Shown here piece by piece: positions 15,452 to 55,705 of a stretch of DNA of 64,000 nt. The stretch is taken from positions 3,162,001-3,226,000 of the forward strand of contig NZ_CP126279.1 in assembly GCF_003234815.2 (NCBI RefSeq), given 5' to 3'. This stretch comes from Curtobacterium sp. MCBD17_035. Lineage in GTDB: Bacteria > Actinomycetota > Actinomycetes > Actinomycetales > Microbacteriaceae. The notes beneath the pieces were generated by a model. That model ran no database searches and had not been told where the DNA came from. It saw only the letters and a list, made by a program, of their open reading frames with translations. A program made the position numbers and the translations under genes. Within the stretch, counting starts at the first letter, position 1; the number at the start of each line of letters is the position of its first letter.

Positions 15452-15658
15452 TCAGTCGGCGGGCCGGAACACCGCGATCGGCAGCGCTCCCGGCTCCTCG
15501 TCGACGTCGTCGGTGGCGATCCAGGTCCGTCCCTCGTGCTCGATGGTCGTCGGGAGCTCGCCCCGCACGATCAGGCGGATCGGCGGCTGGTCGCCGTCCA
15601 CGAGGTCCACGCCCCGCGCGCGGTCGTCACCGGTGTTGTCGACCACGTACTCCGTCAT
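15452..15658 (-). CDS. Small conserved-looking protein of unknown function
   Basis: The 68-aa acidic soluble protein begins 12 nt after the stop of the PPDK-like gene and is therefore probably its operon partner. It has a compact beta-like pattern (IRLIVRGELPTTIEHEGRTW) and no recognised family. Confidence 0.55.
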   Translation of the reverse strand: MTEYVVDNTGDDRARGVDLVDGDQPPIRLIVRGELPTTIEHEGRTWIATDDVDEEPGALPIAVFRPAD

Positions 15659-15670
15659 GGGTGCAGTCTG

Positions 15671-17398
15671 TCACCGTCCGGCGGCCCAGGTGTCGAGCCG
15701 CTCGAGCGCGCGCAGCGCCGCGGCCCGGTCGCCGCCCCGGTCGGGAGGCACGGGGGCGCCCGCCCCGTCGCTCGCCGCGGTCGCCGTCCCCGACGACGCG
15801 TCGCCGGCGTCCGTTCCGCTCCCGTCCCCGGTCGCGGCCCCCGCCGCTCCGACCCACACCCGACCGGAGGCACCGTCGACGGTCACGACGTCGCCGACGC
15901 GGACCACGACGCCGGAGGGGCCGGTCGCGGTGGTGTCGTCCCCGGCACCCGCGAGCACGAGGTCACCGGCGCCGACCACGGCCGGGACGCCCCACCCCCG
16001 CGCGACCACGGCCGCGTGACTGGCCAGGCCGCCCCGGCAGGTGACGATCGCGACCGCGGCGGACATCCCGACGACGTCCTTCGGGCTGGTCTCACGACGC
16101 ACGAGCACGACGTCGCCGTCCGCGGCGAGCGCCGCCTCGGACGAGAACACGACCGCCCCGGTGACGATCCCGGGCGACGCGCCGAGCCCGGTCACGAGCA
16201 GGGGCCCGCCGGCGGCAGCACCGTCCGCGTCGTCACCGTGCTCCGTGGCGGAGCCAGCACCACCCGTCTCGAGGTCGAGCCGCGCCCGCTCCCGGACCTC
16301 CTCCGGGACGCGCGCCACGGCCTCCTCGGGCGTCAGCGCGACCTCCGGGTCGTCCACCAGGTCGACGGCGGTGCGCACGGCGGCGACCGCGCTGAGCTTG
16401 CCGGCGCGGGTCTGGAGGAACCAGAGCCGTCCCTCCTCGACGGTGAACTCGACGTCGCAGACGTGGCGGTAGTGGGCCTCCAGGCGGCGCAGCGCGGCCA
16501 TGAGGTCGACGTACACCTGGGGGTCGAGGTCGGCGAGGTCGCGGACCGGCACCGGGTGCGCACTGCCGTCGACGACGTCCTCGCCCTGGCCGCGGACGAG
16601 GTAGTCGCCGTACGGGCCCGGCGCGCCGGTGGCCGGGTCGCGCGTGAAGACGACGCCGGTTCCGGAGCGTGGTCCGCGGTTGCCGAACACCATGGCCTGC
16701 ACGGTGACGGCGGTGCCGGCGTCGTCGTCGATGCCGTCGCGGGCGCGGTAGGCGCGGGCACGCTCGCTGTCCCACGACGCGAAGACCGCGGCGATCGCCT
16801 CGCGGAGCTGCTGCTCGGGGTCGTGCGGCACGGGCCGCCCGGCGAGCTCGGTGATCCGTCGTTGCAGCGTGCGGGCGTCCTCGGCGTCGGCGAGCGCCTC
16901 GACGGACACGCCCATGACGATCGTGGCGTACATCCGGAGGAAGCGCCGGTGGCTGTCCTCGGCGAAGGCGTCGTCCCCGGTGGCGCGCGCGAGCCCCCGC
17001 ACGGTGTCGTCGTTGAGCCCGAGGTCGAGGACCGTGTCGAGCATCCCGGGCATCGAGACGGCGGCGCCGCTCCGAACGGACAGCAGCAGCGGATCGTCCG
17101 GGTCGCCGAGCCGGCGGCCCATCCGCTGGCCGAGCGCCGCGACGTGTGCCGCGACGACGGCGTCGAGCGAGGGGGGCCAGCCACCGTGACGCCACCGACG
17201 GAACACCGGCAGTGCGATCGTGAACCCCGGGGGGACGTCGAGTCCCAGCGCGGTCATCTCGGCGAGGCCCGCGCCCTTGCCGCCGAGCAGCTCCGTGAGC
17301 TCGCGGACGGGGACGCCGTGGTGGTGGTCGAGCGCGAACACGGCGTCGTCGAGCGCGCGGTCCCGCGGTTCGACGCACGGCTCGGACGGGGAGGACAT
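15671..17398 (-). CDS. PPDK/PEP-synthase-like protein lacking the PEP/pyruvate-binding domain
   Basis: The 575-aa protein has an N-terminal ATP-grasp part of pyruvate phosphate dikinase (LGGKGAGLAEMTALGLDVPP; LSVRSGAAVSMPGMLDTVLD; QAMVFGNRG; GVVFTRDPATG). It is followed by the swivelling phospho-His domain TCRGGLASHAAVVARGWGVP with His461, and then only an Ala/Gly/Ser-rich tail. Canonical PPDK is near 880 aa and ends in a TIM barrel that handles PEP/pyruvate; that barrel is absent. It can probably autophosphorylate from ATP and pass phosphate to another acceptor. AGGAG supports ATG 17398. It is divergent from the P450 operon. Confidence 0.85.
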   Translation of the reverse strand: MSSPSEPCVEPRDRALDDAVFALDHHHGVPVRELTELLGGKGAGLAEMTALGLDVPPGFTIALPVFRRWRHGGWPPSLDAVVAAHVAALGQRMGRRLGDPDDPLLLSVRSGAAVSMPGMLDTVLDLGLNDDTVRGLARATGDDAFAEDSHRRFLRMYATIVMGVSVEALADAEDARTLQRRITELAGRPVPHDPEQQLREAIAAVFASWDSERARAYRARDGIDDDAGTAVTVQAMVFGNRGPRSGTGVVFTRDPATGAPGPYGDYLVRGQGEDVVDGSAHPVPVRDLADLDPQVYVDLMAALRRLEAHYRHVCDVEFTVEEGRLWFLQTRAGKLSAVAAVRTAVDLVDDPEVALTPEEAVARVPEEVRERARLDLETGGAGSATEHGDDADGAAAGGPLLVTGLGASPGIVTGAVVFSSEAALAADGDVVLVRRETSPKDVVGMSAAVAIVTCRGGLASHAAVVARGWGVPAVVGAGDLVLAGAGDDTTATGPSGVVVRVGDVVTVDGASGRVWVGAAGAATGDGSGTDAGDASSGTATAASDGAGAPVPPDRGGDRAAALRALERLDTWAAGR

Positions 17399-17458
17399 CA
17401 CGGCGCTCCTGGGGTCGGAAAGGTGTTCCACAGTAGCCAGTTCGTCGCCCGACGCGAC

Positions 17459-17464
17459 TACGGT
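17459..17464 (+). promoter_or_regulatory. -10 hexamer TACGGT of a leaderless promoter
   Basis: TACGGT ends 8 nt before ATG 17473 of the P450 gene and no Shine-Dalgarno is present. The intergenic space to the divergent PPDK-like gene is only 74 bp, so both promoters share it. Confidence 0.5.
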
Positions 17465-17472
17465 TGGCGACC

Positions 17473-18687
17473 ATGACGATCGGGAGCCCGACGGCGGGCG
17501 TCGACCTGATGGACCTCACCGCGTTCGCGGACGACCGCGAGATGGCGGTGTTCGCCGCGCTCCGGGAGCAGGACCCCGTGCACTGGAACGCCCCGTCGCA
17601 CCGCGGGCCGGGCTTCTGGGCGCTCACTCGGTACGCCGACGTCAAGGCCGCGGCGAGCGAGATGCCGCAGCTGACGAGCGCCGAGGGCACCCAGATCCTG
17701 GACCGCAAGGTGGAGGGCGCGCTGCAGAGCCTCCACAACATGGACGGGCAGGAGCACGTCGCCCTGCGCCGGGTCACGATCCCGCACCTGCGGGCCGTGA
17801 AGATCCAGCAGTGGCAGGCCATGATCGACGAGGCCGTGACGCTCCTGCTCGACGAGGCGGAGGCCCGCGGCACCTTCGACCTGGTCGAACGCATCAGCGC
17901 CCGCCTGCCGATGCTCGTGCTGTCCCGCGTCCTCGGCATCCCCGCGTCGGATGCGCCCCGCATGGTCGACTGGACGAACCGGTTGACGAGCTCCGACCCG
18001 GACCACCTGGTCGACGCCGACGCCCTCGCCGAAGCGCGGGACGAGGTCATGGGGTACTTCCAGCGCCTCACCGAGGAGCGTCGCGCCGACCCCCGGGACG
18101 ACCTCATCAGCGTCATGGCGAACGGCAGCGTGGCCGGGCAGCCGCTCACCTGGAACCAGCTGGCGGCGTACTACATCGTGCTCGTGGCGGCCGGGAACGA
18201 GACCACGCGGCACCTCGTCTCGGGCGGCACGGTGGCGCTCCACGAGCACGACGCGTGGGCGCGGCTGGAACGTGACCGCGGCCTCCTGCCGAGGACCGTC
18301 GAGGAGATGTTCCGCCACGTCAGCCCGGTCGCCGCGATGCGCCGGACCGCACTCGAGGACCTGACCATCGACGGACGCGACGTCGCCGCGGGCGACAAGG
18401 TCGTCCTGTGGTTCTCGGCCGCGAACCGTGACCCCGCCGTGTTCGAGGACCCGGACGACTTCCGCCTCGACCGCACGCCGAACGACCACCTGAGCTTCGG
18501 GTGGGGCGCGCACTTCTGCCTCGGGTCGCACCTGGCGCGGGCGGAGGTCCGGTCGTTCTTCGGCGCCGTGCTCGACCGCGGGATCCGGTTCGAGCTCGAC
18601 GGGGAGCCGGAACGCCTGCGGGTGAACCTGTTCCGCGGGTGGGACCGCGTGCCGGTGCGTGTGGTCCGGACGGGAGGCGCGGCATGA
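17473..18687 (+). CDS. Cytochrome P450
   Basis: The 404-aa soluble bacterial P450 has the I-helix AGNETTRH, ExxR (EEMFR) in the K helix, and the haem loop FGWGAHFCLG with Cys349 as thiolate ligand. The FGWGxHFCLG form is usual in actinobacterial P450s that hydroxylate terpenoid, steroid-side-chain or fatty substrates. It needs ferredoxin and reductase partners, and none are encoded nearby. Its stop overlaps the ALDH start (ATGA). It heads an operon with ALDH, ADH, a PEP-utiliser-like protein and PAP2, consistent with hydroxylation followed by oxidation. Confidence 0.93.
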   Translation: MTIGSPTAGVDLMDLTAFADDREMAVFAALREQDPVHWNAPSHRGPGFWALTRYADVKAAASEMPQLTSAEGTQILDRKVEGALQSLHNMDGQEHVALRRVTIPHLRAVKIQQWQAMIDEAVTLLLDEAEARGTFDLVERISARLPMLVLSRVLGIPASDAPRMVDWTNRLTSSDPDHLVDADALAEARDEVMGYFQRLTEERRADPRDDLISVMANGSVAGQPLTWNQLAAYYIVLVAAGNETTRHLVSGGTVALHEHDAWARLERDRGLLPRTVEEMFRHVSPVAAMRRTALEDLTIDGRDVAAGDKVVLWFSAANRDPAVFEDPDDFRLDRTPNDHLSFGWGAHFCLGSHLARAEVRSFFGAVLDRGIRFELDGEPERLRVNLFRGWDRVPVRVVRTGGAA

Positions 18688-20219
18688 GTCCCGAGACCGG
18701 TGTCAGCACCACCGCCGCTCCCGTCGACGCGGTCGTCGTCCCCGACCGCTCCGTGTTCATCGGCGGCGGCTGGGTCTCGCCCGACGACGAGGCCCCACTC
18801 GACGTCGTGGACCCGGCGACGGAACGGATCATCGGCACCGTCCTCGACGCATCCGCCGACCTCGCGCACCGCGCACTGCTCGACGCCCGGGAGGCCTGGC
18901 CCGCCTGGGCCGCGCTGCCACCGTCCCGACGTGCCGGGCTCCTCGACGCGCTCGCCGCGGAACTCGAACGGCACGGTGACGCCCTCGCCGAGCTCGCGAC
19001 GCACGAGATCGGCATGCCCATCCGGGAGTCCCGCGCGGTCCAGGTCGACCTGCCCGTCAAGGTGCTCCGCTCGACGGCGGCGATCGCCCGGCAGCTCGCC
19101 TGGGACAGCCGCGACGCCTCGGGCAGCTCCGTCGTGCGCGAGCCGGTCGGCGTGGTGCTCGCGATCACGCCGTGGAACTTCCCCGTCCACCAGATCGTGG
19201 CGAAGCTCGCGCCCGCACTCGCCGCGGGCTGCACGGTCGTGCTCAAGCCGGCCGAGCTCACGCCGCTCAACGCGCTGTTCCTCGCCGAGCTCGGGCGCCG
19301 AGCGGGGCTGCCCGCCGGGGTGTTCGACGTCGTCACCGGGACCGGCGCGACGACGGGCGAGGCGCTCCTCCAGGACGAGACGTGGGACATGGTGTCGTTC
19401 ACCGGCTCGCTCGCCGTCGGTCGGCACATCGGTGCCGTCGCCGGGTCGCGGATCAAGCGCGCGACGCTCGAACTCGGCGGCAAGTCCCCCGCGGTCGTGC
19501 TCGACGACGCCGACCTCGACCTGGCGGTGCGGACCACCGTGCGCAACTGCTTCACGAACGCGGGCCAGAAGTGCAACGCGCCGACACGGTTGCTCGTGCC
19601 GGCGGACCGGCTGCACGACGCGGTCCGGATCGCGGCGGAGTCCGCCGACGCGTACGTGCTCGGGGACCCGCTCGATCCCGGGACGACGATGGGTCCGGTC
19701 GTGTCGGCGGAGCAGCGCGCGAAGGTCCTCCGGTTCGTGGACACCGCACGAGCCGCGGGGGCGACGGTCGCCACGGGCGGCACCGCCGTCGACGGCACGG
19801 GGTTCTTCCTGCGCCCGACGATCGTCACCGACGTCGCCGAGGACGCCGAGATCGTCCGCGAGGAGGTGTTCGGTCCGGTCCTCGTCGTGCAGGGTCACGC
19901 GAGCGAGGACGACGCGGTCCGGATGGCGAACGACACCCCCTACGGCCTGTCGAGCGAGGTCTGGTCGGCGGACGAGGCCCGCGCGGCGGCGATCGCCCGA
20001 CGCATCCGTGCCGGTCAGGTGCGGGTGAACGGCGTCCGCACCCCGGCCCTCCCGGTCTCGCCGTTCGGCGGGTACGGACAGTCGGGGCTGGGGCGCGAGA
20101 TGGGGCCGTTCGCGATCGAGGAGTACCTCGAGGTGAAGGCCGTGCTCGGCGACCCCGTGCTCGATCCGACCGCGACCACCGCCGCACCAGCGGCCGCGGG
20201 GCAGGACCCGCTCGCGTGA
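18684..20219 (+). CDS. NAD(P)-dependent aldehyde dehydrogenase
   Basis: The 511-aa protein has the ALDH signatures ITPWNFPVHQ, FTGSLAVGR, LELGGKSP (general-base Glu) and NAGQKC with catalytic Cys297, and ends in the FGGYGQSGLGREMG oligomerisation strand. It oxidises an aldehyde to the acid. It is translationally coupled on both sides (ATGA with the P450, GTGA with the alcohol dehydrogenase). It probably acts on the aldehyde produced by the next gene's enzyme from a P450-hydroxylated substrate. Confidence 0.93.
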   Translation: MSPETGVSTTAAPVDAVVVPDRSVFIGGGWVSPDDEAPLDVVDPATERIIGTVLDASADLAHRALLDAREAWPAWAALPPSRRAGLLDALAAELERHGDALAELATHEIGMPIRESRAVQVDLPVKVLRSTAAIARQLAWDSRDASGSSVVREPVGVVLAITPWNFPVHQIVAKLAPALAAGCTVVLKPAELTPLNALFLAELGRRAGLPAGVFDVVTGTGATTGEALLQDETWDMVSFTGSLAVGRHIGAVAGSRIKRATLELGGKSPAVVLDDADLDLAVRTTVRNCFTNAGQKCNAPTRLLVPADRLHDAVRIAAESADAYVLGDPLDPGTTMGPVVSAEQRAKVLRFVDTARAAGATVATGGTAVDGTGFFLRPTIVTDVAEDAEIVREEVFGPVLVVQGHASEDDAVRMANDTPYGLSSEVWSADEARAAAIARRIRAGQVRVNGVRTPALPVSPFGGYGQSGLGREMGPFAIEEYLEVKAVLGDPVLDPTATTAAPAAAGQDPLA

Positions 20220-21286
20220 GGGCCGCCGTCGTCACCGAGGCCGGTGGTCCGTTCGTCGTCCGCGACGACGTCGAGCACCGCGCGCCCGGCCCCGGCGAGG
20301 TCGTCGTCCGGATCCGCGCCGCGGGCCTGTGCCACACCGACCTGTCCCTGGCCGCGGGCGCGTTCGGGCAGCGGCTCCCGGCCGTCCTCGGACACGAGGG
20401 CGCGGGCGAGGTCGTCGCCCTCGGGCCGGACGTCGACACCGTGGCCGTCGGCGACCGCGTCGTCGTGTCGTGGGTCCCCCGGTGCGGCCACTGCTCCGCG
20501 TGCCGCCGCGGCGAGTCGTACATCTGCCGGAACCGCCCCCGATCGTCGGCGCAGGGCGCGGCGATGACGGCCGGCGGTGCGGACGTGGTCGCCGGGATGG
20601 GCACCGCGACCCTCGCCGAGGAGACCGTGCTGCCCGTGACGGCGCTCGTGCCGCTGCCCGAGGACGTGCCGTTCACCGTCGGTGCGCTGCTCGGCTGCGC
20701 CGTCCCGACCGGGTTCGGTGCCGCCGTCGACACCGCGCACGTCGCCCCGGGCGAGACCGCCCTGGTGATCGGGGCCGGCGCGGTCGGGCTCAACGCCGTG
20801 CAGGGCGCCCGGATCGCGGGTGCGACCACGATCGCGGCGGTCGACCCGAGCGCGGACCGCCGTCGCCTGGCCGCGGAGCTCGGTGCGACGACGACCGCCG
20901 CGCCCGGGGACCTCGACGGTGCCGCGCTGACGGATGGCGAGGGCTTCGACGTCGCGATCGACGCGGTCGGGTCGTCCGGCACGATCCGGGCCGCGTGGGA
21001 CGCCGTCCGACGCGGTGGTCGGGTGGTCGTGGTCGGCGCGGGCCGGAGCGACGACCCCGTGCGGTTCAGCGCCCAGGAGCTGTTCCACGAGCAGAAGTCG
21101 ATCACCGGGTCGTTCTACGGCTCGAGCGACATGTGGCGGCAGGTCCCGCGCATGGTCGACGCCTGGCGTGCCGGGGACCTCCGGCTCGACGCGTTCCTGA
21201 CCGACGTCGTGTCCCTCGACGACCTCGAGGCGGCGGCGGCCCGGCAGCGCGCCGGCGACGTCCTCCGCGTGGTGGTCACACCGTGA
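20216..21286 (+). CDS. Zinc-dependent alcohol dehydrogenase (class III-like)
   Basis: This is a 356-aa medium-chain dehydrogenase with catalytic-zinc ligands in AAGLCHTDLSL and LGHEGAGEV, a structural-zinc cluster CGHCSACRRGESYIC, and the NAD-binding segment VIGAGAVGLNAVQGA. It belongs near mycothiol- and aryl/alkyl-alcohol-type dehydrogenases. GTG 20216 overlaps the ALDH stop (GTGA). The likely role is oxidation of an alcohol intermediate from the P450; the substrate is unknown. Confidence 0.9.
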   Translation: MRAAVVTEAGGPFVVRDDVEHRAPGPGEVVVRIRAAGLCHTDLSLAAGAFGQRLPAVLGHEGAGEVVALGPDVDTVAVGDRVVVSWVPRCGHCSACRRGESYICRNRPRSSAQGAAMTAGGADVVAGMGTATLAEETVLPVTALVPLPEDVPFTVGALLGCAVPTGFGAAVDTAHVAPGETALVIGAGAVGLNAVQGARIAGATTIAAVDPSADRRRLAAELGATTTAAPGDLDGAALTDGEGFDVAIDAVGSSGTIRAAWDAVRRGGRVVVVGAGRSDDPVRFSAQELFHEQKSITGSFYGSSDMWRQVPRMVDAWRAGDLRLDAFLTDVVSLDDLEAAAARQRAGDVLRVVVTP

Positions 21287-21368
21287 CCACCCGTCCGACC
21301 GACCGACCGGTCCGAACACCCGACGACCACGAACCGCGCAGCGCAGCGCACCGACACGGAGGACCGAC

Positions 21369-23732
21369 ATGGCCCAGCAGCTCACCGACGACGAGACCAC
21401 CTTCGAGCAGGTCGGCACCGGCCTGACGGTCTACGAGACCGACGACCTCGTCGAGGGCGTGGCGAAGTGGCTCGAGACACCCGAGGACGTCATCGCCTTC
21501 GCCGACCTCGACGACGTGTCCGACGTCGTCGTGATCGCCCGCGGCGGCACCACGACCTTCCTGACGATGGCGCTCAACGCGGGCATCCGCGGGGTCGTCA
21601 CGCTGCAGGGCGCACCGGAGAGCCACCTCGGCATCCTCTGCCGCGAGTACGGCATCCCGGCGGTGATGTCGGTCACGTTCGACAAGGGCGTCCGCACGCC
21701 GCGCGGCGAGGTGATCCCCGCCGACGGCGTGCGGATCCGGCTCGACGTGTCGTCGCGGCCGGGAGGCAGGGTGAGCGTCGAGCGCGGTGCTCCCGTCGAC
21801 GACTCCCCGGCGCCCGAGGGCGCCGCCCCGGCGATGAGCCAGGAGGAGTTGGCGCAGATCATGCTCCTGCTCGAGAAGTTCGGTGGCGTCGTGCCGAAGG
21901 GTTCCGAGGGCGATGCCGTCATGCAGGCCGAGATGACCACCCGGGTGCTGTACACCGACGCGGAGTCGATCCACCGCGACCTCACGCGCGAGGAGGTCAA
22001 CGAGGCGATCCGCTACTACACCTGGAACGAGTGGGACGCCCTCGCTTCGCGTGCCACCGAGGGCGAGTCCGGACTCATCCCCCGCCAGGAGTACGAGGCC
22101 ATGGGGATCATGAACTGCTGGTTCCAGCACCCGCGGTGGCTCCGTGCGATCGAGGACCGGATCGGGATCGACGGCGTCGTCGACATCGCGTCGATCGCCA
22201 AGCGCGAGATCGGCACCAAGGTCAACATGCTGCACATCTGGGCGCTCGCCACCGCGCCGTCGTTCGGGCGGGGCATCGCGCTCGAGCTCGGCCTGCACGA
22301 CGCCGACTACGAGGCCGACCGGATCCGCGACGCGTTCGGCGTCGTCCGTCGGCTCTACAACGGTTTCTGGGGCGACGGCCCGATCCTCACGTCGATGCAG
22401 GGGTACCGTGCCGAGGTCCTCGACCGCGACTGGATCGACCGCTTCAGCCAGGACCGGATCGCCCTGGGCGCGGACGCCGACCGCTCGACGTTCCAGCGGT
22501 TCCAGGGAGCCGCGGAGCTCATGGGGTTCCTGCTCCACTTCGACAACCGGCTCGGTGTGTCGGATCACGGGCCCTACCCGACCGACGACGGCGGGTTCGT
22601 CCTCGTCCGCGACATCTTCCTCAACGAGCCCGCCTGGCACTGGAACGACCCGGCCTCGCCGCTGCCCTGGTCCGTCACGACCGCGATGTTCTTCGGCCCG
22701 GACTCCGGCCTCGACGTCCAGGTCATCGACATCTCGACCGCGTTCACGAACCCGGCCAACTACGTGCCGTACATCCAGGGCGTGGCGGCGTACACGCGAC
22801 CGACCTGGGACGCGCCGATGTCCGACATCGACGTCCTGTCGCTCGAGGACATGGCCGCCCTGCGCACGCAGATCGAGGCGCAGTCCGCCGCCCTGTACGG
22901 ACGGATCGCGAGCATGGACCGCCGCGAGAAGATCGAGGCGGGCGCCCTCACGTACACCGCGGGCTTCGCGCTCCCGTTCGCCCGCGCCGCCGGCCTGCTC
23001 GACGAGCTCATCGCCGATCACGACTTCCTCGGGATCCACCCCGCGGTCGCCGCCTGCTACGACACGATCGTCAGCGGGGTCGCGACCGAGATGATCCCAC
23101 GACTGTTCCTCACGGGGTCGTGGGGCAACCCCGTCCCCGAGACCGCCTCGACCGGTCTCGTCGCCGACGAGACCGAGTTCGCCGTCCTCCAGGCGCTGCG
23201 TGTCCGCGGGTTCGCCACGACCGAGCAGATCGCCGAGAGCACCGGGCTCGACGCCGCGGCGATCGACGCGACACTCGCCGCCACCGACGAGCGCGGACAC
23301 ACCCAGCCGACCGGGGGACGTCGGGCCATGCACACGCTCACGCCGGCCGGACGCGCCCGCGCCGTGCTCCTCGCGGGCGACCGACTCAGCGCCACGCAGC
23401 GCAGCACCGTGGCGGACGTGTACGAGTCGTTCCTGTTCCCGAACCGCGACGTCAAGCAGCTCACCGCGGACGCGCAGTCGGGAGCGGACGTCACGGAGCG
23501 ACTCGAGGTCGTACACGGGCAGATCGGAGCCGTGCTCGCTCAGCTCGGGGATGTCGACCCGCGCTTCGGCCGGTACGGCGAGCGGCTCGAGCGAGCGATC
23601 ACGGCCTACCGCGGAGGCGACCGGGACGCCCTCGCCCGGCCCCTGTCCGGCTCGTACCACGACGTGTGGATGGAGCTGCACGAGGACCTCATCGCGACGC
23701 TCGGGCGGGAGCGCACGGAGGACGACGAGTGA
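21369..23732 (+). CDS. PEP-utiliser mobile (phospho-His) domain fused to an unknown domain and a winged helix
   Basis: The 787-aa protein begins with a PEP-synthase/PPDK swivelling domain: VVVIARGGTTTFLTMALNAG, then GAPESHLGILCREYGIPAVM, with His86 at the phospho-His position. Residues ~150-595 form a large domain I cannot assign; it is rich in Trp, His and acidic residues, with motifs such as MGIMNCWFQHPRWLRAIEDR and NEPAWHWNDP. Residues ~600-665 look like a winged helix (FAVLQALRVRGFATTEQIAE), and a helical tail follows. There is no ATP-grasp domain here; the only one nearby is in the divergent PPDK-like gene. It follows the ADH gene after 82 nt and overlaps the PAP2 gene (GTGA). Confidence 0.8.
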   Translation: MAQQLTDDETTFEQVGTGLTVYETDDLVEGVAKWLETPEDVIAFADLDDVSDVVVIARGGTTTFLTMALNAGIRGVVTLQGAPESHLGILCREYGIPAVMSVTFDKGVRTPRGEVIPADGVRIRLDVSSRPGGRVSVERGAPVDDSPAPEGAAPAMSQEELAQIMLLLEKFGGVVPKGSEGDAVMQAEMTTRVLYTDAESIHRDLTREEVNEAIRYYTWNEWDALASRATEGESGLIPRQEYEAMGIMNCWFQHPRWLRAIEDRIGIDGVVDIASIAKREIGTKVNMLHIWALATAPSFGRGIALELGLHDADYEADRIRDAFGVVRRLYNGFWGDGPILTSMQGYRAEVLDRDWIDRFSQDRIALGADADRSTFQRFQGAAELMGFLLHFDNRLGVSDHGPYPTDDGGFVLVRDIFLNEPAWHWNDPASPLPWSVTTAMFFGPDSGLDVQVIDISTAFTNPANYVPYIQGVAAYTRPTWDAPMSDIDVLSLEDMAALRTQIEAQSAALYGRIASMDRREKIEAGALTYTAGFALPFARAAGLLDELIADHDFLGIHPAVAACYDTIVSGVATEMIPRLFLTGSWGNPVPETASTGLVADETEFAVLQALRVRGFATTEQIAESTGLDAAAIDATLAATDERGHTQPTGGRRAMHTLTPAGRARAVLLAGDRLSATQRSTVADVYESFLFPNRDVKQLTADAQSGADVTERLEVVHGQIGAVLAQLGDVDPRFGRYGERLERAITAYRGGDRDALARPLSGSYHDVWMELHEDLIATLGRERTEDDE

Positions 23733-24544
23733 CCCACACCCACCGCGCCTCCAGTCCGAGGTCGGTGGGCCGGCGAGACGTCACCGAGTGGCGGAGCCCC
23801 GCGGGCCGACGCCTGGCCGACCGCCACCAGCGGCTCGTCGACCGGGTCGGCGCGCACCGGGCGCTCATCGGCCTGCTCGCCGTCGGGGGCGGGGTCGCGG
23901 CCGGCGCGACCTGGCTCGCAGCGACGATCTACGACGACGTGGCCGACCGCAACGGCATCGCGAGCCTCGATCAGCCCGCGCTCGCCTTGGCCAAGCGGCT
24001 CCGCTCACCCGCGCTCGACGGCACGGCGGCGGCGATCGCGCACGGGTTCGGCCCGGTCGGCATGCCCCTGCTCGCGGCGGCAGCGGGTGGCGCGTTCGCG
24101 CTCGAGCAACGGAAGGCCGCGCCGTTCACGCTGCTCGCCGCTGCCGGGCTCGGCTCGCTCGGCATGACCGTCGCCGGCAAGCGGATCATCCACCGCCACC
24201 GGCCGGGCCGTCGTGACGCGATCCCGCCGTACGAGCGGTCGCCGTCGTTCCCGTCCGGGCACACGCTCAATGCGACGACGATCGCCGGGATCGTCGCGTA
24301 CCTCCTCATGCTGCGGCAGCGTCGGCAGGCACCGCAGGTGGTCGTCGCCGGGTCGGCCCTCGCCACGATCGCTGGGGTCGGGCTGTCCCGGGTCCTGCTC
24401 GGCGCGCACTGGTTCACGGACGTCGCGGTGGGATGGACGACGGGTGCCGGGTGGCTCGCGACGGTCATCACCGTCCACCGACTGCACCTGACGACGGAGC
24501 ACGGCAGGACGCCGGCCGCCACTGACATCGACGGCCGGCGCTGA
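23729..24544 (+). CDS. PAP2-type membrane phosphatase
   Basis: The 271-aa membrane protein has the three phosphatase motifs KRIIHRHRP, SFPSGH and SRVLLGAHWFTD, with hydrophobic segments before and between them. Family members remove phosphate from lipid, prenyl or other organic phosphates, usually at the outer membrane face. GTG 23729 overlaps the stop of the PEP-mobile gene, so the pair is coupled. Alternatively it could serve undecaprenyl-phosphate recycling, unrelated to the operon. Confidence 0.88.
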   Translation: MTHTHRASSPRSVGRRDVTEWRSPAGRRLADRHQRLVDRVGAHRALIGLLAVGGGVAAGATWLAATIYDDVADRNGIASLDQPALALAKRLRSPALDGTAAAIAHGFGPVGMPLLAAAAGGAFALEQRKAAPFTLLAAAGLGSLGMTVAGKRIIHRHRPGRRDAIPPYERSPSFPSGHTLNATTIAGIVAYLLMLRQRRQAPQVVVAGSALATIAGVGLSRVLLGAHWFTDVAVGWTTGAGWLATVITVHRLHLTTEHGRTPAATDIDGRR

Positions 24545-31947: not shown

Positions 31948-32609
31948 CCCATCCCCGCCTCGGTGACGAGGTACCGCGGGCTCGCCGGATCCGGCTCGAG
32001 CTTCTTCCGCAGCTGCGCCATGTACAGCCGCAGGTACCCGCTGTCACCCCCGTGCGACGGACCCCACACCTCGGTGAGGAGCATCTCACGGGTCATGAGT
32101 CGATCCGGGTGCGCCAGGAGGACCTCGAGCAGCCGCCACTCCGTCGGGGTGAGCCGCACGGGGGCGCCGGTGCCTTCGGCCCACGTCACTTGCTTGGCGG
32201 CGAGGTCGACCACGAGGTCGCCGATCCGGACGGTCGGGGCCTCCTCGGCCGGGGCCCGTCGACGGCCGAGCGCCCGGAGGCGGGCCAGGAGCTCGTCCAT
32301 CTGGAACGGCTTCGTCACGTAGTCGTCCGCCCCGGCGTCGAGCGCGTCCACCTTGTCGGCCGAGTCCGTGCGGCCGGACAACACGAGCACGGGCACCTGG
32401 GTCCACGCCCGGAGCGCCTCGAGCACCCCAAGACCGTCGAGCCGCGGCATGCCGAGGTCGAGGAGCACGAGGTCCGGCCGCTGCGTGATCACCGCGTCGA
32501 GCGCAGCCCGGCCGTCGCGGGCGGTGACGATCTCGTAACCACGGGCGCCGAGCGTGACGGACATGGCTCGGACGAGCTGGGCGTCGTCGTCGGCGATGAG
32601 GATCTTCAC
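31923..32609 (-). CDS. kdpE: Response regulator KdpE
   Basis: This 228-aa OmpR-family regulator has a receiver domain with the acidic pocket DDD (residues 7-9), phospho-acceptor Asp51 in LVLLDLGMP and Lys in VTKPFQ. The C-terminal winged helix contains LTPTEWRLLEVLLAHPDRLM and YLRLYMAQLRKKLE, as in KdpE. It should activate the kdpFABC operon that starts about 2.5 kb away on the other strand. GTG 32609 overlaps the stop of the kinase gene (GTGA). Confidence 0.9.
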   Translation of the reverse strand: MKILIADDDAQLVRAMSVTLGARGYEIVTARDGRAALDAVITQRPDLVLLDLGMPRLDGLGVLEALRAWTQVPVLVLSGRTDSADKVDALDAGADDYVTKPFQMDELLARLRALGRRRAPAEEAPTVRIGDLVVDLAAKQVTWAEGTGAPVRLTPTEWRLLEVLLAHPDRLMTREMLLTEVWGPSHGGDSGYLRLYMAQLRKKLEPDPASPRYLVTEAGMGYRFSPTG

Positions 32610-34078
32610 TGATGTCCTTCCTGACCCGCGCCGGCGATCGGCAGGCGGACGACGACCGTGAGCCCGCCACCCGGGGTGTCGTCGACCCGGATGGTCCCAC
32701 CCATGCCCTCGGTGAACCCGCGGGCGAGCGCGAGTCCGAGTCCGAGTCCGCTCTCGTTGTCCGTGTCCCCGAGCCGCTGGAAGGGCAGGAACACGTCCTC
32801 ACGGCGCGACGCCGGGATGCCCGGACCCGAGTCCGCGACGCGCAGCTCGACGACCGTGCCGGAGGCGGTCGCGGCCACGCGGACCCGCACGCCGTCCGGC
32901 GAGTAGCGCTGCGCGTTCGCGAGCAGGTTCACGACGACCCGCTGCAGGAGCACCGGATCGGCGCGGACGGGCAGGAGATCGGCGGGCAGGTCGAGGTCGA
33001 CGTCCGTGGGACCGAGTGCGAGCTCGTCGAGCGCCGGGGCGACGACGTCCTCCAGGGCGATCGTCTGCGGCGTCACCGCGAGCACCCCGGCCTGCACGCG
33101 GCTCACGTCGAGCAGGTCGGCCAGCAACGCCGCGAGGGACCGCAGGCTCTCGTCGGCGGTCGCGAGCAGTTCCTCCCGGTCGGACTCCGTCAGCGTGACG
33201 TCGGCTGCGCGGAGTCCGCCGATCGCCGCCGTGGCCGCGGCCATCGGGCGGCGCACGTCGTGTCCGACCGCGGCGAGCAGGGCGCTCCGGACCCGGTCGG
33301 TGGCCGCGATCCGCTCCGCGTCGACCGCGGCCCGGGCGAGCACGCGGTGCTCGAGCGCGGCGTCGACCTGCTGCTCGACGACGGCCAGGAGGCGCCGCTC
33401 ACCCGGTCCGACCGCGCCACCCCGGAACTCCACCACGCCACCACCCGGGAGGCTCCGGGTCGCGTCCGGCGTGCCGAGTACCGCCCCCGACGACGCGGCC
33501 ACGTCGTCGTCCTGCCGGACGAGCACGCTGTCGAACCCGAACGCCTCGCGGGTGCGGTCGACGAGCGCGGCGAGGGCGTCGTCGCCGCGGAGCACGCTCC
33601 CCGCGATGCCCGTGAGGAGGGCGGACTCCGCAGCGGCCCGGCGGGCGGTGCGGGAGTGCCGCGCCGAGCGGTCCACGACCACGCTGACGAGCACGGCGCT
33701 CACCACGTACAGGACGAGGCCCGCGAGGTGCGACGGCTGCTGGACCGTGATGCGGTGGACGGGAGCGACGAAGAAGTAGTCGAGCGACAGTCCCGACAGC
33801 ACCGCGGCGAGCACCGCCGGCCATGCGCCGCCGATGAGCGCGGCGACGAGCACGAGGAGCTGGTACGCCAACGCCTCGACCGTGATGTCCCCGCGGGCCC
33901 CGATCGCGACGAGCAGCCCGGTGAGCGACGGTCCGACGACGACCACCAACGCGACGGCACCGAGCACGCGGGACCGGCTGAGGCTGCCGGTCCGCCCGGT
34001 CGCGAACCGCACGGTGCGGCGGAGCACCGAGGAGTCGGGGTGGACCGCGCGATCGGCCTCGGGTCGTCGACGCTCCAT
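32606..34078 (-). CDS. Shortened KdpD-like sensor histidine kinase
   Basis: The 490-aa protein corresponds to the C-terminal half of KdpD. It has four transmembrane helices of the DUF4118 type, a GAF-like region, the phospho-acceptor H in AVGHDVRRPMAA, and ATPase motifs VVNLLANAQRYSPDG, DSGPGIP and GLGLGLAL. The N-terminal KdpD ATPase-like and UspA-like cytoplasmic domains are missing. It is strongly similar to the second half of the full KdpD at 39782-42304 and is coupled to kdpE by overlap. It probably phosphorylates KdpE with altered signal input. ATG 34078 is preferred over an upstream start at 34108. Confidence 0.87.
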   Translation of the reverse strand: MERRRPEADRAVHPDSSVLRRTVRFATGRTGSLSRSRVLGAVALVVVVGPSLTGLLVAIGARGDITVEALAYQLLVLVAALIGGAWPAVLAAVLSGLSLDYFFVAPVHRITVQQPSHLAGLVLYVVSAVLVSVVVDRSARHSRTARRAAAESALLTGIAGSVLRGDDALAALVDRTREAFGFDSVLVRQDDDVAASSGAVLGTPDATRSLPGGGVVEFRGGAVGPGERRLLAVVEQQVDAALEHRVLARAAVDAERIAATDRVRSALLAAVGHDVRRPMAAATAAIGGLRAADVTLTESDREELLATADESLRSLAALLADLLDVSRVQAGVLAVTPQTIALEDVVAPALDELALGPTDVDLDLPADLLPVRADPVLLQRVVVNLLANAQRYSPDGVRVRVAATASGTVVELRVADSGPGIPASRREDVFLPFQRLGDTDNESGLGLGLALARGFTEGMGGTIRVDDTPGGGLTVVVRLPIAGAGQEGHQ

Positions 34079-34125
34079 GCACTCATCCTGCCGTCTGGCT
34101 GCGTGCACCGCCTGTCACCGCACGA

Positions 34126-35227: not shown

Positions 35228-35313
35228 TCGTCATCACCATCGCCGCGGCCGTGCTCGGCATCGCCGCCATCGGCTACCTCGTGTGGGCGCTCGTCCGCCC
35301 GGAGCAGTTCTGA
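35224..35313 (+). CDS. kdpF: KdpF, small subunit of the K+-transporting ATPase
   Basis: The 29-aa peptide has one transmembrane helix and the typical end [13 protein letters not shown] (E. coli KdpF ends LVYALINAEAF). It stabilises the KdpABC complex in the membrane. GTG 35224 overlaps the preceding stop; the TGATG junction couples it to kdpA. Confidence 0.85.
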
Positions 35314-36998
35314 TGAGCGCCGCGGAGACCTGGGCGGGCATCGCGTCCGTCGCGGCACTCGTGCTGCTCCTCGTCGTCGTCCACCGCTCGCTCGGCGACC
35401 ACATGGCCCGCATCTACACCCCCACGAAGCACATGCGGGTCGAGCGCGGCGTCTACCGGCTCATCGGGGTCGACCCCGACGCGGAGCAGTCGTGGCCCGC
35501 GTACCTGCGGAGCGTCCTGCTGTTCAGCGTGGTCGGCGTGTTCGCCATCGACACGCTCGAGCGTCTGCAGGCCGTGCTCCCCGCGAGCCTCGGACTCCCC
35601 GCGGTCACGCCGAGCCTGGCGTTCGACACGGCGGTCTCGTTCGTGACGAACACGAACTGGCAGTCGCACTCCCCCGAGCTCACGATGGGCTACACGGTCC
35701 AGATGGCCGGCCTGGCCGTGCAGAACTTCCTGTCGGCCGCGGTCGGCATGGCGGTCGCCGCGGCGCTCGTCCGCGGGTTCGCCCGGCGACGTACCGGGAC
35801 CCTCGGCAACTTCTGGGTGGACACGGTCCGCACGGTGTGGCGTCTGCTGCTGCCGGTGTCCTTCGTGTTCGCGATCGTCCTCATCGCGGGCGGTGCGGTG
35901 CAGAACTTCCTCGACCCGACCACCGTCCACACGCTCGCGGGCGGCACGCAGACGATCGCGGGTGGCCCCGCGGCGTCGCAGGAGGCCATCAAGGAGTTCG
36001 GCACGAACGGCGGCGGGTTCTTCAACGCGAACTCCGCCCACCCGTTCGAGAACCCGCAGCCGTGGACGAACCTCCTCGAGGTGTTCCTGCTGCTGGCGAT
36101 CCCGTTCAGCCTGCCGCGCACGTTCGGCACGATGGTCGGCGACCGCCGCCAGGGGTACGCCATCCTCGCCACGATGAGCGTCATCTTCCTCGTCTCGCTC
36201 TCGGCGATGTCGTCACTCGAGCTCGCCGGCGGCGGCACCGCGGCCCACCTCGCGGGTGCCGCGATGGAGGGCAAGGAGGTCCGGTTCGGCGTCATCGGGA
36301 CGACGATCTTCAACACCTCCTCGACCATCACGTCCACCGGCGCCGTGGACGGCATGATCGACAGCCAGACCCCGCTCGGCGGCATGATGGCGATGATCAA
36401 CATCATGCTCGGCGAGATCGCGCCGGGTGGGACCGGGTCCGGCCTGTACGGCATGCTCGTCCTCGCCGTCATCACGGTGTTCATCGCCGGCCTGCTCGTC
36501 GGCCGCACGCCCGAGTACCTCGGCAAGAAGATCCGTGCCCGCGAGATGACGTTCGCGTCCCTGTACGTGCTCGTCACACCGGCGATCGTCCTGCTCGGTG
36601 CGGGACTCTCCCTCGTGATCCCCGGCGTCGCCCAGCAGGTCGAGCACACCTCGATCTCCAACCCGGGCAACCACGGGTTCTCCGAGCTGCTCTACGCGTT
36701 CACGAGCGCCACGAACAACAACGGGTCCGCGTTCGGCGGCATCACCGCGAACACGACGTGGATGAACTCGGCCCTCGCGGTCGCGATGGCCCTGGGCCGG
36801 TTCGTCCCGATCGTGCTCGTGCTCGCGCTCGCCGGGTCCCTCGCCCAGCAGGACCACGTGCCCGCCACCTCCGGGACGCTGCCGACGCACCGCCCGCTGT
36901 TCATCGTCCTGCTCGCCGGTGTCGCCGTGATCGTCACCGCCCTGACCTACTTCCCGGTCCTCGCACTGGGCCCCCTCGCAGAAGGACTCGTCCGATGA
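35313..36998 (+). CDS. kdpA: KdpA, K+-binding subunit
   Basis: The 561-aa polytopic protein has the KdpA-specific selectivity-filter-like segments [42 protein letters not shown] and [11 protein letters not shown]. It forms the K+ path of the high-affinity P-type importer. It overlaps kdpF and kdpB by 1-4 nt. Its length matches the usual ~560 aa. Confidence 0.95.
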
Positions 36999-39781: not shown

Positions 39782-42304
39782 ATGCAACGGGGACGCCTCC
39801 GGGTCCTGCTCGGCGCCGCCCCGGGCGTCGGCAAGACCTACACCATGCTCGAGGAGGGCCGCCGCCTCCGCGACGAGGGCCGTGACGTCGTCGTGTCCGT
39901 GGTGGAGACCCACGGCCGCGCGGCGACCGCGGCCCTCGTCGCGGGGCTCGAGCTGGTCCCGCGGCGCACGGTCGAACACCGCGGCGTCCGGCTCGACGAC
40001 ATGGACCTGGAGGCCGTGCTCGCCCGCCGCCCGGACGTCGCGCTCGTCGACGAACTCGCCCACACGAACGCGCCCGGCAGTCCGCACGACAAGCGCTGGC
40101 AGGACGTCGAGGCGATCCTCGCCGCCGGGATCGACGTGATCTCGACGGTGAACGTGCAGCACATGCAGTCGCTGTCGACCGTCGTGCAGGAGATCACGGG
40201 CACGGTGCAGCGCGAGACCGTCCCCGACGCGGTCGTCCGGGCCGCCGACCAGATCGAGGTCGTCGACCTCTCGCCACAGGCCCTGCGAGACCGGCTCTCC
40301 GACGGGCTGGTCTACCCCGCGGCTCGGATCGACGCCGCGCTGTCCAACTACTTCCGGCTCGGGAACCTGACGGCGCTCCGCGAGCTCGCGCTCCTCTGGC
40401 TCGCCGACGAGGTCGACGACGCCCTGAAGAAGTACCGCGCCGAGCACGGCATCCAGCACAAGTGGGAGGCCCGGGATCGCGTCCTGGTCGCACTCACCGG
40501 CGGTCCCGAGGGCGAGACCCTGCTCCGCCGCGGGGCACGGATCGCCGCCCGGTCCGCCGGCGGCGAGCTCGCCGCCGTGCACGTCACCACGAGCGACGGC
40601 CTCCGCGAGCGCCATCCGGGTGCGCTCGGTCGCCAGCGCGCACTCGTCGAGCAGCTCGGCGGCACCTACCACCAGGTCGTCGGGGACGACGTCCCGACCA
40701 CGCTCGTGCGGTTCGCCCGATCCGTCGACGCGACCCAGATCGTGATCGGGGTGAGCCGTCGGTCGCGGGTGCTCGCCGCGCTGACCGGTCCGGGCATCGG
40801 CACGACCATCGTGCGCGAGTCCGGTGACATCGACGTCCACATCGTGACGCACAGCGCCGCCGGGGGCCGCCTCGCACTCCCCCGACTGGGCGGCAGTCTG
40901 TCGCGCTCCCGGGTCGTGGCCGCGTTCCTCCTGGCCCTCGCGATCGGGCCGCTCCTGACGTTCGTGCTGTCCTCCGTGGGCGACCGCGACGCGATCACGG
41001 TCGAGGTGCTCGCCTACCAGATGCTCGTGCTCGTCGTGGCGCTCGTCGGCGGGATGTGGCCGGCCGTGTTCGCCGCGGTGCTGTCGGGGCTGTCCCTCGA
41101 CTTCTTCTTCGTGCAACCCCTGTACACGGTGACCGTGCAACGGCCCTGGCACCTCGCGGCCCTCATCCTCTACGTGGCGAGCGCCGTCGCGGTGAGCTGG
41201 GTCGTGGACCGGTCCGCGCGACGATCGCGCGCCGCCCGCCGTGCCGCCGCCGAGTCCGCGCTCCTGGTCGGGATCGCCGGCAGCGTCCTGCGCGGGGACG
41301 ACGCCCTGCAGGCACTCGTCGACCGAGCGCGTGAGGCGTTCGGGTTCGACGGTGTGCTCGTCCGGCAGGGTGAGGACGTCGTCGCCGAGGCCGGCGCCGT
41401 GCATGGTGCGCCGAGCGCGACCACGCGCCTCCAGTCCGGCGGCACCGTCGAGTTCCACGGTTCCGCCGACCCGGGCGGACAGCGGTTGCTCCGCGTCGTC
41501 GAGCGGCAGATCGACGTGGCGCTCGACCACCGCACCCTGGCGCGGACGGCGGGCGAGGCGGAGCGGATCGCGGCGGCGGACCGGGTGCGCAGCGCCATCC
41601 TCGCCGCCGTCGGGCACGACGTGCGTCGGCCGCTGGCCGCCGCGTCGGCCGCGATCCAAGGCCTCCGCGCGCAGGACGTCACCCTGTCCGACCACGACCG
41701 GGAGGTCCTCCTCACCACCGCCGACGAGAGCCTGCGGACCCTCGGGTCACTGCTCGCGGACCTGCTCGACGTCTCGCGGGTCCAGGCGGGCGCGCTCGCC
41801 GTGGCGACCGCACCGATCGGCGTCGACACCGTCGTCGCTCCGGCGCTCGACGAGCTCGAGCTCGGCCCGGGCGCCGTCGACCTCGACCTGCCCGCCGAGC
41901 TCCCGCCGGTCCGTGCCGACGCGGTGCTGCTGCAGCGGGTCGTCGTGAACCTGCTCGCGAACGCCGAGCGGTACGCCCCCGCCGGCACCCGCGTCCGCGT
42001 GGCGGCGAGCGCCTTCGGCGGCATGGTCGAGCTGCGCATCGCGGACCAGGGCCCGGGCATCCCACCGGAGCGTCGGGACGACGTGTTCATGCCGTTCCAG
42101 CGACTCGGGGACACGGACAACGACACGGGGCTCGGCCTCGGACTGGCGCTCGCCCGCGGGTTCATCGAGGCGATGGACGGATCGGTCGAGGTCGACGACA
42201 CCCCGGGCGGCGGCCTGACCGTCGTCGTGCGGCTCCCCATCGCGGGACACCTCGGCGTCGGAACCGTCACCACGCACACGCACGGCACGGCGACGAGCAC
42301 GTGA
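39782..42304 (+). CDS. kdpD: KdpD full-length sensor histidine kinase
   Basis: The 840-aa protein has an N-terminal KdpD domain with Walker A GAAPGVGKTYTML and LVDELAHTNAPGS, a UspA-like domain (~245-370), four DUF4118 helices, a GAF-like region, the phospho-acceptor His in AVGHDVRRPLAA, and N/G boxes NLLANAERYAP, DQGPGIP and GLGLGLAL. It senses K+ limitation or ionic stress and phosphorylates KdpE. It follows kdpC by 11 nt. Unusually, it is separated from kdpE and is the second KdpD-type kinase of the locus. Confidence 0.95.
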   Translation: MQRGRLRVLLGAAPGVGKTYTMLEEGRRLRDEGRDVVVSVVETHGRAATAALVAGLELVPRRTVEHRGVRLDDMDLEAVLARRPDVALVDELAHTNAPGSPHDKRWQDVEAILAAGIDVISTVNVQHMQSLSTVVQEITGTVQRETVPDAVVRAADQIEVVDLSPQALRDRLSDGLVYPAARIDAALSNYFRLGNLTALRELALLWLADEVDDALKKYRAEHGIQHKWEARDRVLVALTGGPEGETLLRRGARIAARSAGGELAAVHVTTSDGLRERHPGALGRQRALVEQLGGTYHQVVGDDVPTTLVRFARSVDATQIVIGVSRRSRVLAALTGPGIGTTIVRESGDIDVHIVTHSAAGGRLALPRLGGSLSRSRVVAAFLLALAIGPLLTFVLSSVGDRDAITVEVLAYQMLVLVVALVGGMWPAVFAAVLSGLSLDFFFVQPLYTVTVQRPWHLAALILYVASAVAVSWVVDRSARRSRAARRAAAESALLVGIAGSVLRGDDALQALVDRAREAFGFDGVLVRQGEDVVAEAGAVHGAPSATTRLQSGGTVEFHGSADPGGQRLLRVVERQIDVALDHRTLARTAGEAERIAAADRVRSAILAAVGHDVRRPLAAASAAIQGLRAQDVTLSDHDREVLLTTADESLRTLGSLLADLLDVSRVQAGALAVATAPIGVDTVVAPALDELELGPGAVDLDLPAELPPVRADAVLLQRVVVNLLANAERYAPAGTRVRVAASAFGGMVELRIADQGPGIPPERRDDVFMPFQRLGDTDNDTGLGLGLALARGFIEAMDGSVEVDDTPGGGLTVVVRLPIAGHLGVGTVTTHTHGTATST

Positions 42305-53724: not shown

Positions 53725-55428
53725 CTACTTGGCCGACGCGTAGTCGTCGGCCACCGCGACCTGCAGCGGGAACTCGACGGGGAAGTCCCCGAACAACAGG
53801 CGCCCGGCATCGGCGGCCGCGGACCGGACGTGCTCGACGACACGGTCGGCGTCGCCTTCGGGCGTGTGCACCATGATCTCGTCGTGCAGGAAGAACACCA
53901 GGTGCGGGCCGGCGGTGACCGGTCCGGGCCACTCGGCCATCAGGCGCGTCCGGAGCCCGGCGAGCCAGGACAGCGCCCACTCGGCGGCGCTCGCCTGCAC
54001 GACGAAGTTCCGGGTGAACCGACCCCAGCTCCGCGCACGACTCCGCGCCGCCCGTTCGAGTGCCGGTGAACCCTCGGCCGAGAACGCGTGGGCCTGGGCG
54101 GCCAGCTGGTCGGGGGACGGTGCCGGCGAGGTCCGCCCGAGCCGTGACGTGACGACCTCGCCCCGCTCGCCCGCCCGGGCCGCTGCCTCGACGAGCGCGA
54201 GCGCCTTCGGGTACGCCCGCGCCAGTCGGGGCACGAGCCGTCCGCCCTCGCCCTGGGTGGCGCCGTACATCGCGCCGAGCATCGCGCCCTTGGCCTGCTG
54301 CCGGGTCTCGACCGCACCCGAGGCGACCACGCCGTCGTACAGGTCGCGGCCCCGCCCGGCCTCCGCCATCGCACGGTCCTGCGCGAGCGCGGCGAGGACA
54401 CGGGGTTCGAGCTGCGCCGCGTCCGCGACGACGAGTTTCCAGCCGGGGTCGGGGACGACCGCGGCCCGGATCTGCTTCGGCAGCTGCAGGGCTCCGCCGC
54501 CGCTGGCCGCCCACCGCCCGGAGACGACACCGCCGACGACGTACTCCGGGTGGAACCGGCCGTCCTCGATCCACTCGTCGAGCCACGTCCAGCCGTTCGC
54601 GGTGAGCAACCGGGAGCGCCGCTTGTAGTCGAGCAGCGGTTCGATCGCCGGGTGGTCGTGGCGCGCGAGCTCCCACTTGCGGGTGGAGTCGACGACGAGC
54701 CCGGCCCGGCGGAGGGAGCGGAGGACGTCCGCGGGCGAGTCGGGGTTGAGCCCGGGGTCGTCGAGCCGTTCGCGCAGCACGGCGGCGAGCTCCTCGAGCC
54801 GCCGCGGTCGGACGCCGTACGGCACGCGGGGGCCGAGCACGTCCTCGAGGATCCGCTCGTGCACGTCGACCCGCCACGGCAAGCCCCCGAAGCGCATCTC
54901 CGCGGCGACGAGTGCCCCGGCAGACTCGGCGGCGAGCAACAGCCGGAGCGCACCCGGATCCCGGGACCCGGCCACGGCCTCCTGTTGCGCGCGGAACTCG
55001 GCGACGGGATCGGCAGCGGACACCGGATCTGCAGCGATCCGTCCGGTGGACGACGGCCCCGACGCGAAGATCGAGTCGTCGAACAGGGCGTCCGCGCGCG
55101 GTGCGGGGGCGGCCTCGCCGGGGTCGTCCCACCAACCGTCCGGTGCCGTCGCGAGCGGCGACCCGGCGGTCGCGACCGCGGTGCGCAGGATCCGGTGGCA
55201 CAGCCGCAGGTCGACGCACCGCGCGACACGGCCGCCCGCCGCGAGCACCTGTGGGTACCAGCGGGCCGTGTCGTCCCACACCCACCGCACGCCCGGCGCT
55301 TCGTGCACCGCGATCCAGGCCGGGAGGCCCGCCGCGGCCACGTGCACCGGCGCGCCCTGGGCGGTCCCCGCGTCCGACACGACGGTCGCGAGCGTGCCGC
55401 CGTCGACGCGGTTCAGGACGATGTGCAC
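53725..55428 (-). CDS. Family A DNA polymerase, actinobacterial bifunctional 3'-5' exonuclease/polymerase type
   Basis: The 567-aa protein has an N-terminal exonuclease-like region (CVDLRLCHRILRTA) and a PolA palm with motif A VVADAAQLEPRVLAALAQD, motif B RQQAKGAMLGAMYGATQGEG and motif C FFLHDEIMVHTP. It is shorter than PolA and lacks the 5' nuclease domain, matching the second PolA-like protein seen in many actinobacteria, probably for repair. GTG 55428 has CATGAT 6 nt upstream (leaderless pattern). Confidence 0.87.
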   Translation of the reverse strand: MHIVLNRVDGGTLATVVSDAGTAQGAPVHVAAAGLPAWIAVHEAPGVRWVWDDTARWYPQVLAAGGRVARCVDLRLCHRILRTAVATAGSPLATAPDGWWDDPGEAAPAPRADALFDDSIFASGPSSTGRIAADPVSAADPVAEFRAQQEAVAGSRDPGALRLLLAAESAGALVAAEMRFGGLPWRVDVHERILEDVLGPRVPYGVRPRRLEELAAVLRERLDDPGLNPDSPADVLRSLRRAGLVVDSTRKWELARHDHPAIEPLLDYKRRSRLLTANGWTWLDEWIEDGRFHPEYVVGGVVSGRWAASGGGALQLPKQIRAAVVPDPGWKLVVADAAQLEPRVLAALAQDRAMAEAGRGRDLYDGVVASGAVETRQQAKGAMLGAMYGATQGEGGRLVPRLARAYPKALALVEAAARAGERGEVVTSRLGRTSPAPSPDQLAAQAHAFSAEGSPALERAARSRARSWGRFTRNFVVQASAAEWALSWLAGLRTRLMAEWPGPVTAGPHLVFFLHDEIMVHTPEGDADRVVEHVRSAAADAGRLLFGDFPVEFPLQVAVADDYASAK

Positions 55429-55468
55429 CCGTCGATCATGCCCGGGACCACCGGCACGACCGGCACGG

Positions 55469-55582: not shown

Positions 55583-55705
55583 CGGGTGAAGGTCCAGCCG
55601 CCGATGCCCCGACCCCCGTGCCCGACGCGGACGGGGTGAGGACCGGATGTGACCATGCCCGGACGCTTCCCGACCCCCTCCGACCGAACTGGAGCACAGA
55701 TCCAC

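Follow-up and report, generated by a model that had tools for sequence, protein, structure and literature searches.

A truncated pyruvate phosphate dikinase, a three-domain phospho-histidine protein and a P450 operon in Curtobacterium: a putative multi-part small-molecule dikinase

What might a truncated pyruvate phosphate dikinase (PPDK) do beside an operon for a P450, two dehydrogenases, and a second protein with a phospho-His domain? The locus that raises this question lies in a 64-kb window (the whole stretch of DNA analyzed here; 72.7% GC) of the 3.46-Mb genome of a Curtobacterium from soil or plants, and was re-annotated from sequence. The truncated dikinase, PPDKs, is encoded on the minus strand (15671..17431); its candidate starts are at 17431 and 17398, of which the ATG at 17398 is the likely one, and the boundary of 15452 given in the first-pass annotation was too low. 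The plus strand encodes the P450 (17473..18687), an aldehyde dehydrogenase (ALDH; 18684..20219; Pfam Aldedh, E 1.9e-158), a zinc alcohol dehydrogenase (ADH; 20216..21286) nearest to NDMA-dependent and mycothiol-dependent groups, the three-domain protein H787 (21369..23732), and a PAP2 phosphatase (23729..24544; Pfam PAP2). The genes for P450, ALDH, and ADH are kept in homologous clusters; that for PAP2, an operon member in the window, is strain-specific. The layout first described for the five plus-strand genes holds for starts, stops, and overlaps: 4-nt overlaps join P450 to ALDH, ALDH to ADH, and H787 to PAP2, a single gap of 82 nt separates ADH from H787, and 74 bp lie between the divergent ATG codons of PPDKs and P450. 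Rfam and tRNA scans found nothing.

PPDKs is a true pyruvate phosphate dikinase in truncated form, consisting of an ATP-grasp domain and a phospho-His swivel (Pfam PPDK_N and PEP-utilizers). Like pyruvate phosphate dikinase, with which these two domains align across about 490 residues (residues 14 to 510 of 873 in solved PPDKs; E about 1e-110), it retains the ATP-site segments SVRSGA, DVEFT, and LQTR and the phospho-His motif GGLASHAAV, whose His472 (codon 16016..16018, minus strand) is the phospho-acceptor by homology to PPDK His455 and VadK His422. Unlike that enzyme, it has no PEP/pyruvate domain, the barrel falling outside the alignment, and it carries Ala or Val at the regulatory Thr position preceding the catalytic His. 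The pyruvate phosphate dikinase model TIGR01828 scores 497 bits, below its equivalog minimum of 843 bits; of the features of that family, ATP-grasp and phospho-His are present and the same-chain PEP/pyruvate TIM barrel is missing. For VadK-type truncated PPDKs (NF004531, cut-off 456 bits), the score is 452.3 bits, and those of orthologs are 480 (L048), 456.1 (L045), and 434 (L041). Because the orthologs end at a similar point, 22 to 34 residues past the swivel domain, the truncation is conserved and is no local frameshift.

The N domain of H787 (aa 10 to 140; 21396..21788, plus strand) is a second swivel domain of the phospho-His type. Its AF2 model (mean pLDDT for H787, 85) fits the swivel of rifampin phosphotransferase (RPH) with Z 14.2 and rmsd 1.8 to 2.1 A, and His86 (codon 21624-21626) is invariant among all aligned homologs. 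The swivel context T/SxxGGxxxH appears as T78-x-x-G81-A82-xxx-H86, with Ala replacing the second Gly. In Pfam, H787 matches PEP-utilizers at aa 54 to 103 only and ATP-grasp is absent, in agreement with the earlier claim of a second phospho-His domain without ATP-grasp in the plus-strand operon.

The M domain (aa 156 to 582, about 430 aa; 21834..23114, plus strand) has no Pfam match. Its model is of good quality by its scores (mean pLDDT 85, pTM 0.86), and comparison with the PDB gave no convincing match by Foldseek (best E 0.14), VIA-align (best Z 4.8 over 73 residues), or profile search (best E 0.31). These searches reject M as a known fold, although the lack of a match is no proof of a new one; as modeled, M is possibly a new fold. 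The likeness to RPH is confined to the swivel: the chains here are split, and M gave no hit to the rifampin-binding domain, none appearing in the structure-comparison lists, which alone do not exclude an RPH-like substrate domain. M carries a EGESGLIPRQEYE segment that does not vary and numerous invariant charged positions, which look like an active site; R, K, E, D, and N are among its invariant residues. We propose that M is the acceptor or substrate domain.

The C domain (aa 600 to 787; 23166..23729, plus strand) resembles Rv1126c, the operon partner of the truncated PPDK VadK (Rv1127c) of Mycobacterium tuberculosis. VadK, from which the PEP domain is absent, autophosphorylates on its catalytic histidine (His422), was co-expressed with Rv1126c for solubility, and has been reported as a histidine kinase with which methylcitrate-cycle enzymes interact (PMC13400623). 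In a mycobacterial genome (L127), a C homolog of 201 aa follows a truncated PPDK; nearby lie a gene of the PE family and others resembling zwf and a hydrolase. By its gene order, we take this pair to be Rv1126c-Rv1127c of H37Rv. A partner of this kind, the name Rv1126c resting on that gene order, is encoded with a truncated PPDK as the C domain of H787, as standalone C genes, and as the L127 pair. In contrast to VadK/Rv1126c, C is fused here to a second swivel and M and lies beside P450, ALDH, and ADH, and methylcitrate genes were not seen near the Curtobacterium cluster. As judged from its domains, H787 is a fusion joining a truncated PPDK-C pair of the VadK type to a second phospho-His carrier, and the cluster offers the VadK-Rv1126c pair a possible acceptor module.

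One half of C is a MarR-like winged helix by structure comparison. Among 114 C homologs, the recognition helix is one of the least conserved stretches (6.7% K/R, 20% D/E), and S762, H764, W767, H771, and R782 are invariant and placed in the C-terminal helices. Given a recognition helix that varies and lacks basic character, with the invariant residues elsewhere, C more probably serves in docking or catalysis than in DNA binding, and a DNA-binding regulator is disfavored.

Do these parts belong together? In a scan of relatives taking one genome per species, H787 or parts of it were found in Curtobacterium, Intrasporangium, Gordonia, Nocardioides, Kribbia, Arthrobacter, Pseudonocardia, Rhodococcoides, and Nocardia. 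The family is rare (3/60 in the genus, 8/395 in the class, and 6/396 in the phylum). The gene set is conserved in Curtobacterium, Gordonia, Nocardioides, Pseudonocardia, Nocardia, Rhodococcoides, and Arthrobacter; Kribbia and Intrasporangium, where contigs are short, show part of it. As the same set recurs in other actinobacterial genera with gene orders that differ, the association is more than chance. N adjoins M in nearly every locus. H787 is split into three genes in half of the genomes; Arthrobacter, Pseudonocardia, Nocardia, and Gordonia lacunae encode N, M, and C separately, so that H787 counts as a domain-fusion link. Orthologs of PPDKs (58 to 66% identity), sometimes outside the fetched locus, are present in all 14 of the 14 other genomes reached via homologous loci, 12 of them with N-M and two (L046 and L049) reached via C and P450. 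These findings support the first-pass view that the two phospho-His proteins form a set that accompanies P450, ALDH, and ADH; a check for their independent occurrence without a shared neighborhood, run across the relatives, did not refute the association.

Divergence follows a similar pattern. Sequence divergence runs parallel among N, M, P450, ALDH, and ADH (distance-matrix r 0.65 to 0.97), with values of 0.90 for N-M, 0.93 for N-P450, 0.90 for M-ALDH, and 0.97 for P450-ADH; C and PPDKs give 0.82, and N and PPDKs only 0.29. Gordonia paraffinivorans and G. lacunae belong to separate sequence groups, and thus species history alone does not explain the correlated divergence. The picture is one of two units, PPDKs with C and N-M with P450, ALDH, and ADH, which would work together.

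The pairing has exceptions. PPDKs with C occurs without N-M and without a nearby P450 in two genomes (G464 and G483), and a third (G512, a short contig) also lacks N-M; PPDKs is therefore not obligately tied to H787. Distant N-M pairs (150 to 300 bits; G075, G193, G242, and G381) are accompanied by a full-length PPDK or none, a truncated PPDK not being found, nor was one found in a metagenome-assembled genome with N-M (G769). Sets of N, M, PPDKs, and C without P450 occur in G509, G612, and G761. An obligate pairing of PPDKs with N-M was rejected on the first two of these grounds. The view of the locus as two His proteins was right about the pairing; it missed the third domain of H787, the VadK-partner homolog C, and the existence of PPDKs with C apart from N-M.

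Our preferred reading, to which we assign a probability of roughly 0.5, is that these genes specify an ATP-dependent small-molecule dikinase made of several parts and coupled to a pathway of terminal oxidation. We favor it because PPDKs keeps the ATP and phospho-His residues without an acceptor barrel, the parts co-occur, and N-M co-diverges with P450, ALDH, and ADH. ATP would phosphorylate PPDKs on His472, C would dock PPDKs, and the phosphoryl group would reach His86 of H787 either directly from the ATP-grasp domain or from His to His. The N swivel would then pass the phosphate on to a substrate bound by M, a compound of alcohol or enol type. P450, ADH, and ALDH would oxidize a terminal methyl group as far as the carboxylate, either ahead of phosphorylation or after it, and a phosphatase, of PTP type in relatives, would remove the phosphate. 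A branched or terpenoid alcohol is the likely substrate class, which is the weakest step of the proposal. From these parts, we infer that an organic molecule is phosphorylated by the cluster. Counted against this reading are the two swivels, the lack of an RPH-like match for M, the inconstant phosphatase, the incomplete pairings, and neighbors that are absent in Curtobacterium.

A comparable arrangement is known from Corynebacterium glutamicum, where the cre cluster encodes the phosphatase CreD and also has ADH and ALDH. Relative to CreHI-CreJ-CreD, our cluster has the same logic of kinase, P450, ADH, ALDH, and phosphatase with different parts, and all five kinds of gene occur together in L041, L047, L048, and other loci. 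In the window, the phosphatase of this set is the nonconserved PAP2, and the comparison is one of gene sets and not of homology to Cre proteins. In alkylphenol oxidation, CreHI is used with the P450 CreJ and CreD (PMC9549646); it is one of the two-component small-molecule dikinases, with HpeHI and PpsAB, which have split chains and a catabolic role (PMC12167813, PMC9618137). Enzymes of this class phosphorylate a small molecule and release AMP. The earlier comparison with phenylphosphate synthase pointed to this same functional class of split small-molecule dikinases. As in HpeHI, CreHI, and PpsAB, the ATP-grasp and phospho-His parts here lie on separate chains in a catabolic type of cluster, which in cre also includes a P450 and CreD. 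However, the ATP subunit of those enzymes is ATP-grasp only and of PEP-synthase type, whereas PPDKs is of PPDK type and brings a swivel along. In their partner chain, the swivel lies on the C-terminal side of an RPH-like substrate domain; in H787, it is N-terminal to M, with C in addition. The two phospho-His swivels exceed the number that known small-molecule dikinases use. Given the swivel on the ATP subunit and the N-terminal partner swivel, we consider this a variant that would work like the HpeHI class, not a member of it.

The main rival is a regulatory phosphorelay, which we regard as considerably less probable. PPDKs and C would form a non-canonical histidine kinase pair of the VadK type, and H787 would act as a regulator or effector under phosphorylation control, adjusting P450, ADH, and ALDH, no metabolite being phosphorylated. 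The report of VadK as a histidine kinase with methylcitrate-cycle enzymes among its interaction partners (PMC13400623), the winged-helix half of C, and the occurrence of PPDKs with C apart from N-M are consistent with such a relay, but the variable, nonbasic recognition helix makes DNA binding less likely, M has the features of an enzyme, and the fusion of the N swivel to M resembles the substrate-carrying dikinases.

The companion genes bear on a second alternative, which we find improbable. N-M would phosphorylate an alcohol or carbonyl only transiently and M would expel the phosphate (dehydration, isomerization, or C-C bond formation), in the manner of 25-hydroxysteroid kinase (25-HSK) and its lyase or of RedH/PigC, with P450, ADH, and ALDH processing the product. 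The size and conservation of M exceed what a passive binding site requires, and PPDKs weakly matches the RedH/PigC models through shared domains. APH/EcKL-type kinases, the broad class of 25-HSK (PMC8449060), adjoin several homologous clusters, together with DUF7065-like proteins; however, PPDKs and H787 are unrelated to 25-HSK, EcKL genes are absent from the 64-kb window and from the fetched Pseudonocardia and Nocardia loci, and no lyase signature was seen. Phosphatase genes in most clusters suggest instead that a phosphoester persists. A Y_phosphatase3-type (PTP-type) gene accompanies most clusters (L036, L038, L039, L041, L043, L045, L047-L049, L111, and L113). The phosphatase type varies among clusters, the PTP type taking the PAP2 position elsewhere. 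The PAP2 gene, proposed at first as a pathway part, is reduced to an 81-bp remnant in a genome of the same species (L033) and was not found in other homologous loci, and it was dropped as a core component. Finally, chance or historical linkage, by which a drifting truncated PPDK and a hypothetical protein unrelated to it came to lie beside a P450 operon for detoxification, would suit the rarity in the genus and the varying gene order, but is very improbable in view of the motifs conserved in homologs, the orthologous PPDKs in every genome reached, the correlated divergence, and the domain fusion.

Within the dikinase reading, the substrate can be narrowed a little. CYP125 and CYP124 types are branched-chain or isoprenoid terminal hydroxylases. 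The PDB chains nearest to the P450 are of these types (best match 8vxi, CYP125MRCA; E 3.5e-84), and EcKL kinase, HMG-CoA lyase, and CrtI-like genes adjoin several homologous clusters; the Curtobacterium locus itself lacks genes for EcKL, DUF7065, and HMG-CoA lyase. The P450 type and these neighbors weakly favor a branched or terpenoid substrate.

A literature search, mostly excluding subscription papers, found no description of this cluster or of a P450 with PEP-utilizing proteins, and the cluster appears conserved yet undescribed. It links VadK, an unexplained truncated PPDK relevant to tuberculosis, to defined candidates for acceptor and docking domains in harmless relatives, whose chemistry is open to assay, and it adds, in M, a domain without a recognized fold. 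It also suggests a second, independently assembled strategy of phosphorylating, oxidizing, and dephosphorylating, comparable to that of p-cresol catabolism and useful for selective C-H oxidation. More tentatively, M may be a new catalytic fold fed by the second swivel, VadK-family PPDKs may be general ATP-fed donors to separate acceptor modules, and Rv1126c-type proteins may serve for docking in a broader class of split dikinases with which actinobacteria oxidize terpenoids or branched alcohols. The Nocardioides cluster, as read from its sequence, contains HMG-CoA lyase and thiolase genes.

Homologues of the C domain, the Rv1126c-like part of H787 and putative partner of the truncated PPDK (pyruvate phosphate dikinase), adjoin apparent full-length PPDK genes in uncultured Actinobacteria (loci L074, L093, and L105), and C may therefore be a general PPDK partner. 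Weak PEP-utiliser-like domains lie on either side of the C homologue in Streptomyces and Amycolatopsis (L077, L081, L083, L084, L088, L094, and L103). A 573-aa protein with a PEP-utiliser swivel at its C-terminal end (L038, 15404-17125; L043, 15421-17133) is a possible further phosphotransfer component; its gene is adjoined at both loci by genes for an APH-type kinase (EcKL) and a Y_phosphatase3-type phosphatase (PTP).

In several species (L042, L044, L035, L036, and L112), the M domain or the entire H787 is present twice per cluster, possibly for heterodimers or for two substrates. The phosphatase gene PAP2, complete in the window (23729-24544), persists as a remnant of just 81 bp in a genome of the same species (L033, 10362-10492); the difference is a recent gain or loss at the strain level.

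Elsewhere in the window, kdpA (35283-36998) is surrounded by two sensor kinases with KdpD-type DUF4118 domains (32606-34108 and 39782-42304), and an 812-aa protein on the minus strand (53725-56163) carries a DNA polymerase A domain in its C-terminal part only.
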